A stretch of 64,000 nt of DNA from Polychytrium aggregatum (taxonomy: Eukaryota > Chytridiomycota > Chytridiomycetes > Polychytriales). The translations under genes were made by a program, and so were the position numbers. Within the stretch, counting starts at the first letter, position 1. Each line of letters opens with the position of its first letter. The notes under the pieces were generated by a model, which had not been told where the DNA came from, did no database searches, and was given only the letters and a program-made list of their open reading frames with translations. Location: NCBI RefSeq assembly GCF_025602895.1, contig NW_026516282.1:1-64000 (forward strand), read 5' to 3'. Of this stretch, positions 59,383 to 64,000 are shown in pieces.

Positions 59383-59570
59383 GGCTGCGGCCGACAGCAC
59401 CTGAGGCGAGCAGATGGATAGATGCAGATGGCGATTGATTGCGGAGGGCCAACAACGAGCACAACAGATTGACCGCGAATGGCGAGAAGACGGCGAGGAG
59501 GCCTCTCGCCGTCTCGGAGAGTACATTCGCAATGAACGAGACCACAGGCCCCACATCTTTGTATTCATTA

Positions 59571-59601
59571 CAGTCAATCCAATGAAAAACGGGACACCAG
59601 T
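59571..59601 (+). repeat. Left terminal inverted repeat of Fanzor remnant element
   Basis: CAGTCAATCCA near the outer edge and AAAAACGGGACAC at the inner edge. It pairs with the right end and resembles the end of the second Fanzor element at 63098. Confidence 0.85.
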
Positions 59602-59659
59602 GATTTTGAGCATTGGCGAGTGTTGTCACTCAACACATCGTGTGCTGGCCATGACCATT

Positions 59660-60312
59660 CTGTGTTTTGAATCAAGGACGCCATGTATTCGATGGAGACA
59701 TGCTGGACAAACAGCTGTACTTCAGCCTGACCCGGCAACGGCGATTCAAGCGACTCGATCTCCACAGCAAGCGACAGCACACTGTCCACGAGATGTGCAA
59801 GCAAGTCATCGACCAGGCACCACCGGAGACCGAAGTGGTGATTGCCTTTGGGAATGCATCCTGGAAGCAAGGGAAGGGATATGCTTCCAGTCCCAGGAGA
59901 CTCAGGTTTGCCAAGTACTTTGAGCAGTTCCACCACCAGAGACGACCACCAGAGACGCCCACCAGACCGATCCATCTCCAAGATCCATGTGTGCTCTGTG
60001 AACGGGTTCAACACATCCCAGGTGTGCTCACATTGTCGGGAATTCAAGCGACTCGAGTCACCCGAGCATCTTGATATCGAGAAACCACACTTTGTCCGGA
60101 GCTGTGCAAGCTGCCATACGCTGTGGGATCGAGACATCAATGCCTCACGGAACATGATCTCGGTATGCCAGTCGATCATCGCCACAGGAGATCGGCCGGG
60201 TGTATTCAAGACTGTGCTTCCCAAACCAACCAAAACCACTCGATTGCCAACCAGGACGGGAAACAATCTCATGGCTTGCTCACTGGGCCTACCGTCAGTC
60301 AGCGGGCTTTAG
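59660..60312 (+). pseudogene. Fanzor-type RNA-guided nuclease, 5'-truncated and frameshifted
   Basis: Only the C-terminal part remains. The first frame reads DMLDKQLYFSLTRQRRFKRL, then VVIAFGNASWKQGKGYASS and FAKYFEQF. After a frame change the protein continues FNTSQVCSHC, FVRSCASCHTLWDRDINAS and ends at 60312. FGNASW is the RuvC-II region, the four cysteines form the zinc finger, and DRDINASRN holds the RuvC-III Asp. RuvC-I and everything before it are missing. The frame change is explained by a 13-bp tandem duplication, CCACCAGAGACG(A/C) at 59933-59945 and 59946-59958, which also accounts exactly for the extra length relative to the copy at 63.2 kb. It is inactive as a nuclease. Confidence 0.9.
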
Positions 60313-60331
60313 ACATCTGAAGCCAGAAAGG

Positions 60332-60362
60332 GAAAGTGTCCCGTTTATTTCTGGATAGACTG
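60332..60362 (+). repeat. Right terminal inverted repeat of Fanzor remnant element
   Basis: GTGTCCCGTTTA at the inner edge and TGGATAGACTG at the outer edge, the reverse complement of the left end with a few mismatches. Confidence 0.85.
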
Positions 60363-60572
60363 TATTCAAGGTGTGGCGAACGATTACTTCAGTGCCACGG
60401 ATTCCCAATCGCACAAATAGGGTAGTCGAAAACAATCCAACGGAGGGAATGCGCATTCATGGTGCAGACGGATGGACATTTCCCTGGAGTTTGCTCTTAC
60501 ACATGAGGTGATTTGACGGCGCATGGGCGACTGATCCGCAGTCGACCATACCTTTGGAATATGAGATGCAGT

Positions 60573-60754: not shown

Positions 60755-62920
60755 TTACTCCTCAAACAGGGCCAGCGACATCAGGAGGCCAACAATCGTG
60801 CCCATCAGCGCCAGCATCGACAGACTCTCGCCCCAAACCGCCAGGACGACCATGGCAACGGCCACTACAGTGCGCATGACGAACCGAATGGTGTCGGACA
60901 CACGCCGGTCGTGGCACGGATAGAGCTCGTGGGCCAGCGACATCAGAGTGAGACTGATGATCGCGATGCTGCACCCAGCAGCGAGGATCCAACGATGTGC
61001 AGCGGTCACGGCGGGAGCCGGCAGGTCCGCATTCACAGCGTTGGCATGCTCAGTGACGACGTAACCCATGGCCGAGCCAACCGCAATGAGGGAGGAGTGG
61101 AGCGGAATGTGCAGCAAGTACCATGTCCATCCGGCAATGGCCTTCCGGCGAGCCGCATGCACGTAGTAGTTGCTGCTGTCGATCGCAAAGTAGATCCAGT
61201 GGAAGAAGATGGCGATGAGCACTCCAAAGATCGTGGCCAAAAACGACGTCGAGATATGAGGCGAAGGCGAGTCCCAAAGGAACCCGACGACGATCTCGCC
61301 GATGACGATCAGAGTCAGGGCACCGTATCGTTCGGTGTTGTGCTCGATGTTGATGGCGAGCCTGTGGCTGATTTTTAGATACCGTCTGGAATGGCGATGG
61401 ATGCGTTAGCTGACAACACGGCCCATGAATTCGAATGTATCCATGTGTCCGGCGATCGAGCAGGTTTCCACAGTCCTAATCGAGGCCAAGAGTCTTGGCT
61501 GCGAGAATTGGTGCTCCTGATGGGTGGATGGACATGTGCTGGAATGATGCGACGGACTTACCGAGTGGCCAGCGCGCACATACTTGGAAGAAACAGGTCG
61601 CAAAGTGACGATATCCACCACAGCGGCGTGCGATAGGCAGCAGGAAGAAACACCGATGCCAGCCAGGGAATGGTGGAAAAATAGTGTCCGAGCTGGTAGG
61701 GAAAGACATCCTTCCAGAACTGATTTGCACGGAGCCGAGCCGGCAAAGAGGGCGAGTAAACCGTGTCAAGTCGAGGCTGTCGCAGCCGCCTGCATCGACG
61801 CTTGTAGCGGCCACTGCAGCCAGTCGCCGCAGCACACACCGGCTTACCTGTCGAGAGTGATGGTTGCCCATGATCACAAAGACAAAGTTGAGGACCCGGA
61901 GAATGATGAACAATATGATGAAGATATTGGCGGTGGAGCTGTCGCCTTGGTCAAAGATGTGGACAATGTTGATTCCCATTGCCGAGACGAGCACGGTCAT
62001 GGCCCAGGTGAAGAGACGGTGGACGAAGCCATCGGCTCCGTAGCGGTTGACGTTCATGTGGATCATGGACCAGGAGCTAGTCAGAAAGTGTGTGCGCACG
62101 GTTGGGTGTCAGGGAGGGGGCAAAGTGGATGTGAGCTGGCTTGGACGAGGAAACCGAGTTTGAGCGATATCGGCATGACGGCTGGCGAAAGCGTACTTCC
62201 AGACAACAAGGAATGCCAGCATGTAGCTGTTGACAGCGATGCCATCGACATTGTCGTGCTTGAAGAGATAGCCTGGGTCGCAGAGGGGACGGATTGCCGA
62301 CGTGCAGGACGCTGTCAATTGGTGGTGCGGCGAGCCGTGAACGGCGGATTGTTGCTGATGCATTTTGGGCAATCGCCATCGGGCGACCCAGCCACATACC
62401 AAGCCGGTCAAAGGCAGCAACATAGACCAGGTCGAGGAACAGCTGATATTCAAAGGGTCAATTATCAGTGGTGCGAGCCAGGCGCTGGCTAGTCGTTCGG
62501 TTGGATGCTTCTTTGTGGCTGCTCCACTCGTTGCCCACCCTCGCTCGGTACGAAAGCTGCTCATTGACGGCCACCCACCTCGTCCCAGGTGACCTTGCGA
62601 AGCGATTTTTCCCGGTAGAGGACGCCATCGATAAAGTACTGGCGAGGGCGGATGGCGGGAAACAAGCTGTGGAGATGCTCGTCGACTTCAGGCAGGAATT
62701 TGATTTGCCCTCGCTGGCCAAACTCGGTGAAGGTGTGGTGGTGCTCGACGGCGACCGCCTCGAGATGGTGCAGATTTCCGCGGCGATCTGTCTCGGTCAC
62801 GACTGCGGTGACATTGGTGCTCGAGTCCTTGGAGCTGAAGGGCTCCTCGGAGAAGGGCTCCTCGGAGTAGATCTCCTCGGGATCGTTGCCGATGTAGATG
62901 CCTCCTCCTTCGGTGTCCAT
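60755..62920 (-). CDS. LtrA-family (low temperature requirement A) membrane protein
   Basis: Six exons, 62920-62579, 62442-62400, 62272-62197, 62076-61848, 61719-61562, 61385-60755, close in phase to 492 residues. After a hydrophilic, acidic N-terminus (TEGGGIYIGNDPEE), the family hallmark spans the first junction: KVTWDE then LFLDLVYVAAFDRL. The second hallmark is AINIEHNTERYGALTLIVIG. About eleven helices follow in total (INIVHIFDQG, IFIILFIILRVLNFVFVIMG, TIFGVLIAIFFHWIYFAID). LtrA proteins occur in bacteria and fungi; the name comes from a Listeria mutant, and the transported or sensed substrate is unknown. The frame is open upstream of the chosen ATG into the Fanzor element, but Met at 62920 is the first outside it. 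Confidence 0.85.
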
Positions 62921-63097
62921 CGGCCGGGGATGCAGGCGAGACGACGGGGGCAGATGGGGCGAAAGCCGAGGGCGGTCGGCTGGCGGTGGTTCAGCCACTT
63001 GTTTGGGTGGCACAGGCAGCCCCAGCAAGGGCGGCGGTTGCACATGTGGCACAGGTTGGGGTGGCTGGGCTCTGATTCCAGATCGACGGTGGTGATA
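62921..63097 (-). promoter_or_regulatory. Upstream region of LtrA-family gene, bounded by transposon end
   Basis: 177 bp between the LtrA-family ATG and the end of the second Fanzor element. The core promoter must be here or inside the transposon. Pro-coding repeats appear, but no TATA box. Confidence 0.35.
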
Positions 63098-63195
63098 CAC
63101 TTTATTCAGAAAAAAACGGGACAATATAGCCGTTTCCATGAACATGTAGTATGTGCTGTGCTTGCGTCAAGCAAAGCCACAAGAAATAAAACAGA
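63098..63195 (-). ncRNA. Candidate guide-RNA (omega/fRNA) region 3' of Fanzor
   Basis: TnpB and characterised Fanzors use a guide RNA made from the region spanning the 3' end of the gene and the element's right end, with the guide taken from flanking DNA. By position this 98-nt stretch between stop codon and element end is the candidate. It contains a small hairpin, TGCTTG/CAAGCA with a 3-nt loop (63159-63173). The natural guide would start just outside the TA, reading from 63095 downward. Location only; no covariation was checked. Confidence 0.4.
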
Positions 63196-64000
63196 TCACT
63201 TTGGCAGCCTCCGAGTGAAGACCGCCGGTCGCTCTCCGGTCTCCACAATCGACCTGCACACTGTGATCATGTTGCGTGCCGCATTGACGTCGCGATTCCA
63301 CACTGTCCGGCAGCTGGGATTCTTGCAGCTCCTGACAAAGTGGGAATTCGCAACACTGGGCGCATCGAGTCCTTCCAACCGAACTGGCTCCAGGCACTTG
63401 GAGCACACCTGCGAGGTGTTGAACTCGTTCGTCGAGGCCACCTTGACGCTTCCATGATGGTGATTGGGACGGCGTCGGTGGTGCTCGAATTGCTCAAAGT
63501 ACCGAGCAAACCGCTGCCTCCGAGGGCTGGATGCATAGCCCTTGCCTTGACGCCATGACGCATTGCCAAAGGCGATCACCACATCGGTCCGTATCGGGGC
63601 GTGCTTCAGGACGGCCTTGCACATCTTGTCGACGGCCACTTGGCGCCTCCTGTGGCCCGTGAAGCGATGGTGACGGGCCTTCTTGCCAAGGTGGAAGTCG
63701 AGCTGCACCCGAAGCTCCGGTTGCAGGACATGGGTGAGATGGACCTTGAAAGCCTCCGAGGACGACACCTTGGGCGAGGGAGTGGTCGACATCCAGGTCT
63801 CGATGCCGAGTCGATACTTCATGGTGTTGTGCCACTTGGTGTTGGACGTATGGCCACACATTTGCTGGTAGTGGCCATTGGAGAACGAGACCACCTCGTC
63901 TTGGTGGCCCGGTGCTTGGATGACCGCCGTGAAGATGGAGCCGACTCCAGGATCGATGCCAATCCAAGTGGTGCGATCGGGGTCTGGGTCGCTGATGTGG
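63196..64000 (-). CDS. Fanzor RNA-guided endonuclease, C-terminal 267 residues in window
   Basis: The open frame enters from the window edge and stops at TGA (63196-63198). RuvC-I is TTWIGIDPGVGSIFTAV with its Asp at 63952-63954. A helical insertion follows (FKVHLTHVLQPELRVQLDF, RRRQVAVDKMCKAVL). Next is the RuvC-II region TDVVIAFGNASWRQGKGYAS, which lacks the Glu found there in bacterial TnpB. Fanzors are known for a displaced Glu; ARYFEQFEHH is a candidate. Then comes a zinc finger with FNTSQVCSKC and SCKNPSC, and RuvC-III VWNRDVNAARNM with its Asp. TIR/TA ends fit Fanzor1, the group carried by eukaryotic DNA transposons. Fanzor cuts DNA guided by an RNA from the element. No stop or frameshift is seen. 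The N-terminal half lies beyond the window. Confidence 0.92.
   Translation of the reverse strand, partial: HISDPDPDRTTWIGIDPGVGSIFTAVIQAPGHQDEVVSFSNGHYQQMCGHTSNTKWHNTMKYRLGIETWMSTTPSPKVSSSEAFKVHLTHVLQPELRVQLDFHLGKKARHHRFTGHRRRQVAVDKMCKAVLKHAPIRTDVVIAFGNASWRQGKGYASSPRRQRFARYFEQFEHHRRRPNHHHGSVKVASTNEFNTSQVCSKCLEPVRLEGLDAPSVANSHFVRSCKNPSCRTVWNRDVNAARNMITVCRSIVETGERPAVFTRRLPK

Follow-up and report, generated by a model that had tools for sequence, protein, structure and literature searches.

A Fanzor1 gene carried by a multicopy Tc1/mariner transposon of Polychytrium aggregatum, and a one-sided (W)TTA flank motif as its candidate TAM

Among described systems, the Spu-1 element of Spizellomyces punctatus, which encodes the Fanzor1 protein SpuFz1, resembles the element analysed here in having a Fanzor1 gene, terminal inverted repeats (TIRs), a TA duplication, ghost copies and a conserved dinucleotide that precedes the 5' repeat beside the TA (PMC10432273 and PMC3627910, accessible parts). 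In Spu-1 this dinucleotide is CA and the TAM is CATA, the upstream motif matching the TAM, and the guide consists of 14-15 nt beyond the right end (PMC10432273, accessible part). According to the same part of that source, Spu-1 is found at 42 loci, 19 of them full length, no transposase lies between the repeats, and the biological role of Fanzors is unknown. Unlike Spu-1, the element described here contains a mariner transposase, is present in far more copies and is flanked by the motif (W)TTA.

The combination of mariner and Fanzor1 is itself already known from PUl-1 and PGv-1, in which a mariner-like transposase and a Fanzor1 share one TA-flanked element, as they do here; the PGv-1 group also joins the same transposase part to a different 3' cargo (PMC3627910, accessible part). 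Unlike the present family, PGv-1 and three relatives are single-copy, and the accessible part of PMC3627910 mentions no flank motif. The TnpB proteins of IS200/IS605 elements belong to the same nuclease superfamily and share the right-end guide and the recognition of TAM and target (PMC10711439, accessible part); these elements differ in being prokaryotic, with the HUH transposase TnpA and the Glu in its canonical position. In the Fanzor literature covered, with subscription journals thinly represented, no Fanzor family as large as this one was found, nor a one-sided motif combined with a mariner transposase. The one-sided flank motif beside a mariner transposase is the new part of the present finding.

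The window, a stretch of 64,000 nucleotides, ends inside the Fanzor gene. The 267 codons that the earlier note had described as open up to the window edge were confirmed on the minus strand, and the extension past position 64000 that it proposed was carried out on the contig (C398, 217,723 bp; assembly of 64.68 Mb in 418 contigs). The full frame comprises 872 codons from stop to stop (C398:63196-65814, minus strand) and, from an ATG within it, encodes a protein of 790 aa without stops and with the N-terminus MPPKRKG...; the 267 residues are the C-terminal third of this longer gene. The contig supplies an open N-terminal half, and the refutation foreseen in the earlier note, a missing or stop-filled half, therefore does not apply. 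The start of the protein (MPPKRKG...PRPKKAK), which we take to resemble a nuclear-localisation signal, precedes a CCHC-like motif (C74, C77, H82, C90). Such motifs at Fanzor starts number one in this family (family A) and two in a sister family, B (L181 208-2772; L009 6199-8568).

In the 872-codon frame, residues 790-849 matched Cas12f1-like_TNB (PF07282) with E 7e-9, which passes the curated Pfam cut-off. A profile of 12 Fanzors was compared with all PDB sequences; these proteins come from the same genome, and the A copies were picked by a recognisable MPPK start (12 of the 21 elements examined), so that intact A copies are favoured. SpuFz1 ranked first (8gkh, E 0.0015) and the next matches were weak (GtFz1, 9cer, E 0.099; LaTranC, E 0.10); with modest scores, the protein was closer to a solved Fanzor1 than to other TnpB-like chains. 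Described hallmarks of Fanzors are a DPG motif, a relocated Glu that precedes the first zinc-finger Cys by six residues, and an Asp that follows shortly after the zinc finger, 4-8 residues away (PMC10711439, accessible part). Here RuvC-I reads GIDPGVG, with D539 in 12/12 proteins, the relocated Glu is found in E715-FNTSQV-C722 and the Asp after the zinc finger in C753-RTVWNR-D760. PMC11423790 (accessible part) puts the Fanzor Glu in the loop that links the fifth strand to the TNB domain, and E715 lies in this loop. In the profile alignment, E715 and D760 correspond to a Glu and the WNRD Asp of SpuFz1. These two are separated by 65 residues, as are E541 and D606 (PMC10432273, accessible part). 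The triad D539/E715/D760 matches that of SpuFz1 and, like the four zinc-finger Cys, is identical in all 12 aligned proteins; the relocated Glu and the C-terminal WNRD...RPxVF tail are further likenesses to the described part of SpuFz1. The partner gene is DDE_3, and not the serine recombinase of Fanzor2/IS607.

The Fanzor identity proposed in the earlier note is supported by this ranking and signature. All the motifs that it named (RuvC-I, FGNASW, a Cys4 zinc finger and RuvC-III) were found, and both catalytic Asp residues were seen, at D539 and D760. Its reading of FGNASW as RuvC-II holds for the position, which is that of the canonical RuvC-II strand, but this strand has no glutamate, the catalytic one being E715 in NEFNTSQVC. 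For a fungal host, the sole support was the chitin synthase domain PF08407, with 13 matches.

Homologues were searched for in a set of 5.8 billion proteins, and none was found at E ≤ 0.001 among the 7,997 candidates scored; consequently the alignment was shallow and the fold model poor. The AlphaFold2 model (12-row alignment) had a mean pLDDT of 48, too poor to use; of the bilobed REC/WED/RuvC/TNB fold expected of a Fanzor1, it showed only a RuvC-like order of strands and helices. Single-sequence PDB searches with a threshold of 0.1 found nothing for the transposase or the full Fanzor; the C-terminal part of the Fanzor had weak matches. Elsewhere in the genome, a 477-codon frame (L003 280-1713, on C124) has, as read from its sequence, an IS607-type HTH/serine-recombinase-like start, which a TnpB/Fanzor2-like RuvC and zinc finger adjoin without a break, a possible fusion; C124 and C379 carry frames of the same size in inverted pairs some 5 kb from each other.

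The Fanzor gene sits inside an element of 3,633 bp (63096 to C398:66728, both TA copies counted). The TIRs claimed in the earlier note were located on both sides of it, as inverted repeats of about 27 bp with arms at C398 63093-63123 and 66701-66731. The ends, TA-CAGGCAATCCAATAAAAAACGGGACAC at the 5' side and TA-CACTTTATTCAGAAAAAAACGGGACAA at the 3' side, differ in sequence, and both standard ends with TA were present in 11 of the 21 elements examined whole. Upstream of the Fanzor, on the same strand, lies a Tc1/mariner (DDE_3) transposase (Pfam, E 5e-21), truncated in the copy at the window edge (283 codons versus 325, about 105 bp shorter than many others); full-length 325-codon frames were found at many other places in the genome. 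Judged from its sequence, the element is a Tc1/mariner cut-and-paste transposon with a Fanzor1 gene as cargo, in hundreds of copies. The copy at the window edge may be active: its Fanzor frame is intact, yet its own transposase is truncated, and its guide RNA is predicted. The coordinates of the features are detailed in Table 1. The internally deleted relative in the window has C-type ends (family C, below) and a T preceding the TA on its left flank. Between the two elements lies a gene fragment for an LtrA-like membrane protein (60758-61405, minus strand; PF06772, E 1.5e-17).

Table 1. Features of the element and its surroundings within the window (residue numbers refer to the 790-aa protein; literature-based entries follow the accessible parts of the sources).
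Feature	Position	Strand	Basis or remark
Host flank, would-be guide of the edge copy if SpuFz1-like	63081..63095	-	Inferred from PMC10432273
Predicted guide-RNA scaffold, stop codon to element end	63096..63195	-	Fold prediction, two hairpins
3' terminal inverted repeat and TA target duplication (63096-63097)	63096..63125	-	
Window portion of the 3,633-bp element	63096..64000	-	
Fanzor1 C-terminal 267 aa and stop codon (63196-63198)	63196..63999	-	Remainder outside the window, to C398:65814
D760 codon (RuvC-III, NRDVNAARN)	63289..63291	-	Aligned to SpuFz1 aspartate (D606 by spacing)
E715 codon, relocated catalytic Glu	63424..63426	-	Aligned to SpuFz1 glutamate (E541 by spacing); expected position, PMC10711439, PMC11423790
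D539 codon (RuvC-I, GIDPG)	63952..63954	-	12/12 aligned; coordinate calculated from the frame
Internally deleted relative: 5' TIR fused to broken-frame Fanzor C-terminal remnant and 3' TIR	59569..60364	+	

The C-terminal stretch of the Fanzor matched at least 144 places in the genome at 94-100% (scored among 1,327 candidates), far beyond chance. Of the 143 Fanzor frames counted, 101 were uninterrupted and reached 750 codons or more, 35 fell below that length and 7 contained stops; allelic contigs enter both copy and frame counts twice. Exact 5' ends numbered 175 genome-wide and exact 3' ends with TA 316; with up to one mismatch the 5' ends were 250, a number in which B and C ends, different by one base, can be included. 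Among 100 listed 5' ends, 66 were compared with listed 3' ends of the same contig, and 53 were paired and 13 unpaired. The paired elements were 43 of 3.4-3.9 kb, two of 1.2-3.4 kb and eight short ghosts (284-1,115 bp); at the site of the edge copy, the allelic contig C246 carries a ghost of about 308 bp with identical flanks. The median pairwise difference between elements was 4%. The pN/pS ratio was 0.31 for the Fanzor (12 frames, chosen among 21 elements by their recognisable start), lowest in RuvC and zinc finger (0.20), and 0.23 for the transposase (5 copies). These ratios indicate that the Fanzor frame is evolving under purifying selection.

The flanks of family A were compared at distinct sites (74 left flanks taken and 12 duplicates dropped; 41 right flanks taken and 15 duplicates dropped). 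On the left, T preceded the TA in 60/62 sites and A or T stood one base further in 53/62; on the right, the 26 sites had neither a clear base preference nor a common sequence. Within the window, T precedes TA in 14% of cases. Genome-wide, T was found before 169 of the 175 exact 5' ends, and A after 59 of the 316 exact 3' ends, slightly above the 14% expectation (p 0.013, allelic copies counted twice). The difference between sides was significant genome-wide (p 4e-71, allelic copies counted twice) and at distinct sites (60/62 versus 7/26, p 1e-11). The copies without left T occupy five sites (six places). Two of these sites (C101/C376 and C119; L041/L045 and L042) end on the right in TG instead of TA, non-TA right ends being 9 against the 316 with TA (by slightly different search patterns). 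In two further copies, on C358 and C371, an A follows the TA on the right, which looks like TTA used in the opposite orientation.

At ten places, family B (5' end TACAGCC) encodes a transposase with 94-97% identity to the query sequence, and its Fanzor was 42% identical in the single copy compared (C63, transposase 95%), which suggests that the two halves were exchanged or evolved very differently. The left base was T in 5/10 distinct sites of family B and in 8/11 of family C (5' end TACAGTC). The 21 B and C flanks were counted by eye, starting from 31 rows minus two A-type ends, three of one TA-less site and six duplicates, with the second element of the window added and L133 (damaged end) left out. 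Their T frequency, 13/21, exceeds the background (p 5e-7) and differs from that of family A (p 2e-4), as does family B alone (p 3e-4); the comparison covers the Fanzor-bearing families A, B and C. A motif set by the Fanzor or by the right end of the element appears to fit these counts better than one set by the transposase. As a separate observation, 14/21 C-type Fanzor 3' ends share the same following flank (ag[tc]at...; L137-L140, L162, L163, L165, L166, L168, L170, L172, L174-L176), which is either a piece of a larger repeat or a common fixed insertion site and guide.

The T may belong to the target DNA. A B element on C157 is inserted in a repeat, and seven unoccupied copies of this repeat (L001-L003, L005-L008) match its left flank at 94-98% over 62 bases and carry both T and TA, in support of T and TA as target DNA; its right flank was unmatched. 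An A copy on C26 borders a tandem repeat, in whose units T occupies the equivalent place. These units read TTGCTTACT-TG where the insertion reads TA, so that the agreement may be chance. These two partial cases are the result of the empty-site comparison among all DNA fetched. For nine joined flanks, neither a true empty site of an A copy nor an excision event was seen among the matches (best 40 of 456 candidates). Against the alternative that T belongs to the element speak the two partial cases, the non-T flanks of the sister family and the fact that mariners usually duplicate TA.

A guide RNA from the right end is predicted and plausible, with weak structural support. The fold of 63096-63198 had -24.2 kcal/mol and z -1.94, and 7/200 shuffles folded equally well. 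Its last predicted hairpin is closed by UACAU/GUGUA and includes the duplicated TA; in the SfAV Fanzor1, the target site duplication is likewise incorporated in the RNA scaffold (PMC10711439, figure legend). The tails of families B and C have an 8-bp hairpin without mismatch in 14/21 cases, and no base pair with changes on both sides was found when RNA covariation was examined in these tails.

The best reading of the left-sided motif is that (W)TTA is a candidate TAM of the Fanzor, for which the precedent of SpuFz1 counts. The T excess of families B and C, the slight excess of A on the right and the two reversed-looking sites count against it. On this reading, the Fanzor would bind an RNA that spans the element's right end and the adjoining host DNA. 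Removal of the element by the transposase would leave a vacated site consisting of the left flank with (W)TTA and the right flank; the Fanzor would then cut this site, (W)TTA serving as TAM, and repair from the sister or homologous chromosome would put the element back. Insertions that lack a TAM would disappear once excised, and this loss would produce the left-sided bias seen here. Taken as a whole, this account, with Fanzor1 as mariner cargo, RNA-guided re-cutting of vacated (W)TTA sites and repair restoring the element, is considered somewhat more probable than not. Its stronger form, in which the left-sided (W)TTA would be a genome-wide record of natural Fanzor activity and only TAM-adjacent mariner insertions would persist, is put forward tentatively, with a probability short of even. 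Allelic copies weigh against retention, as copying from the homologue should equalise them. At three sites with both alleles, the flanks differed in 0/1,658, 2/1,768 and 4/1,767 bases (the last pair also in several gaps) and the elements in 40/3,743, 115/3,626 and 49/3,597; the differing states were also found in other copies in 33/40, 85/116 and 27/49 cases. These elements (L043/L058, L041/L045, L052/L056) look like mosaics of other copies. Their divergence reflects either sequence exchange between copies in fixed sites or mis-polished assembly inside repeats.

The same bias would arise if the transposase itself preferred TTA and set the orientation, the Fanzor being a passenger or acting otherwise and the motif being no TAM. 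The T excess in families B and C, of which B shares the transposase, the right-hand A of the non-T copies on C358 and C371, as expected from a reversed TTA, and the unlike sequences of the two element ends are in favour of this explanation. Mariner target preferences are usually symmetrical around the TA, which counts against it, as do the contrast between right A (59/316) and left T (169/175) and the change in bias between families with near-identical transposase and 5' TIR (60/62 against 5/10); we regard it as somewhat unlikely. Alternatively, the Fanzor ribonucleoprotein could help to select where the element inserts, through the opening or marking of (W)TTA sites for example, instead of acting after excision. 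The near-absolute bias (169/175), beyond what a partial survival advantage might give, suits such a role, but the 26 distinct right flanks have no common sequence and no mechanism of this kind was found in the accessible parts of the literature; this role is held to be improbable. Finally, the elements could be decaying repeats with a Fanzor no longer functional, whose open frames merely reflect youth. The short and stop-containing frames (35 and 7 of 143) and the low divergence between elements agree with decay, against which stand the pN/pS of 0.20 in RuvC and the triad intact in 12/12 aligned proteins, intact A copies being favoured by choice; this possibility is judged very improbable.

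Returning to (W)TTA as candidate TAM and to the retention of elements by re-cutting, the element joins a transposase and a Fanzor in one unit with many intact copies. The same transposase accompanied by another Fanzor in a sister family, together with the one-sided motif, makes the role of the Fanzor testable. If the retention record is true, it would give Fanzor a biological role, that of transposon retention.
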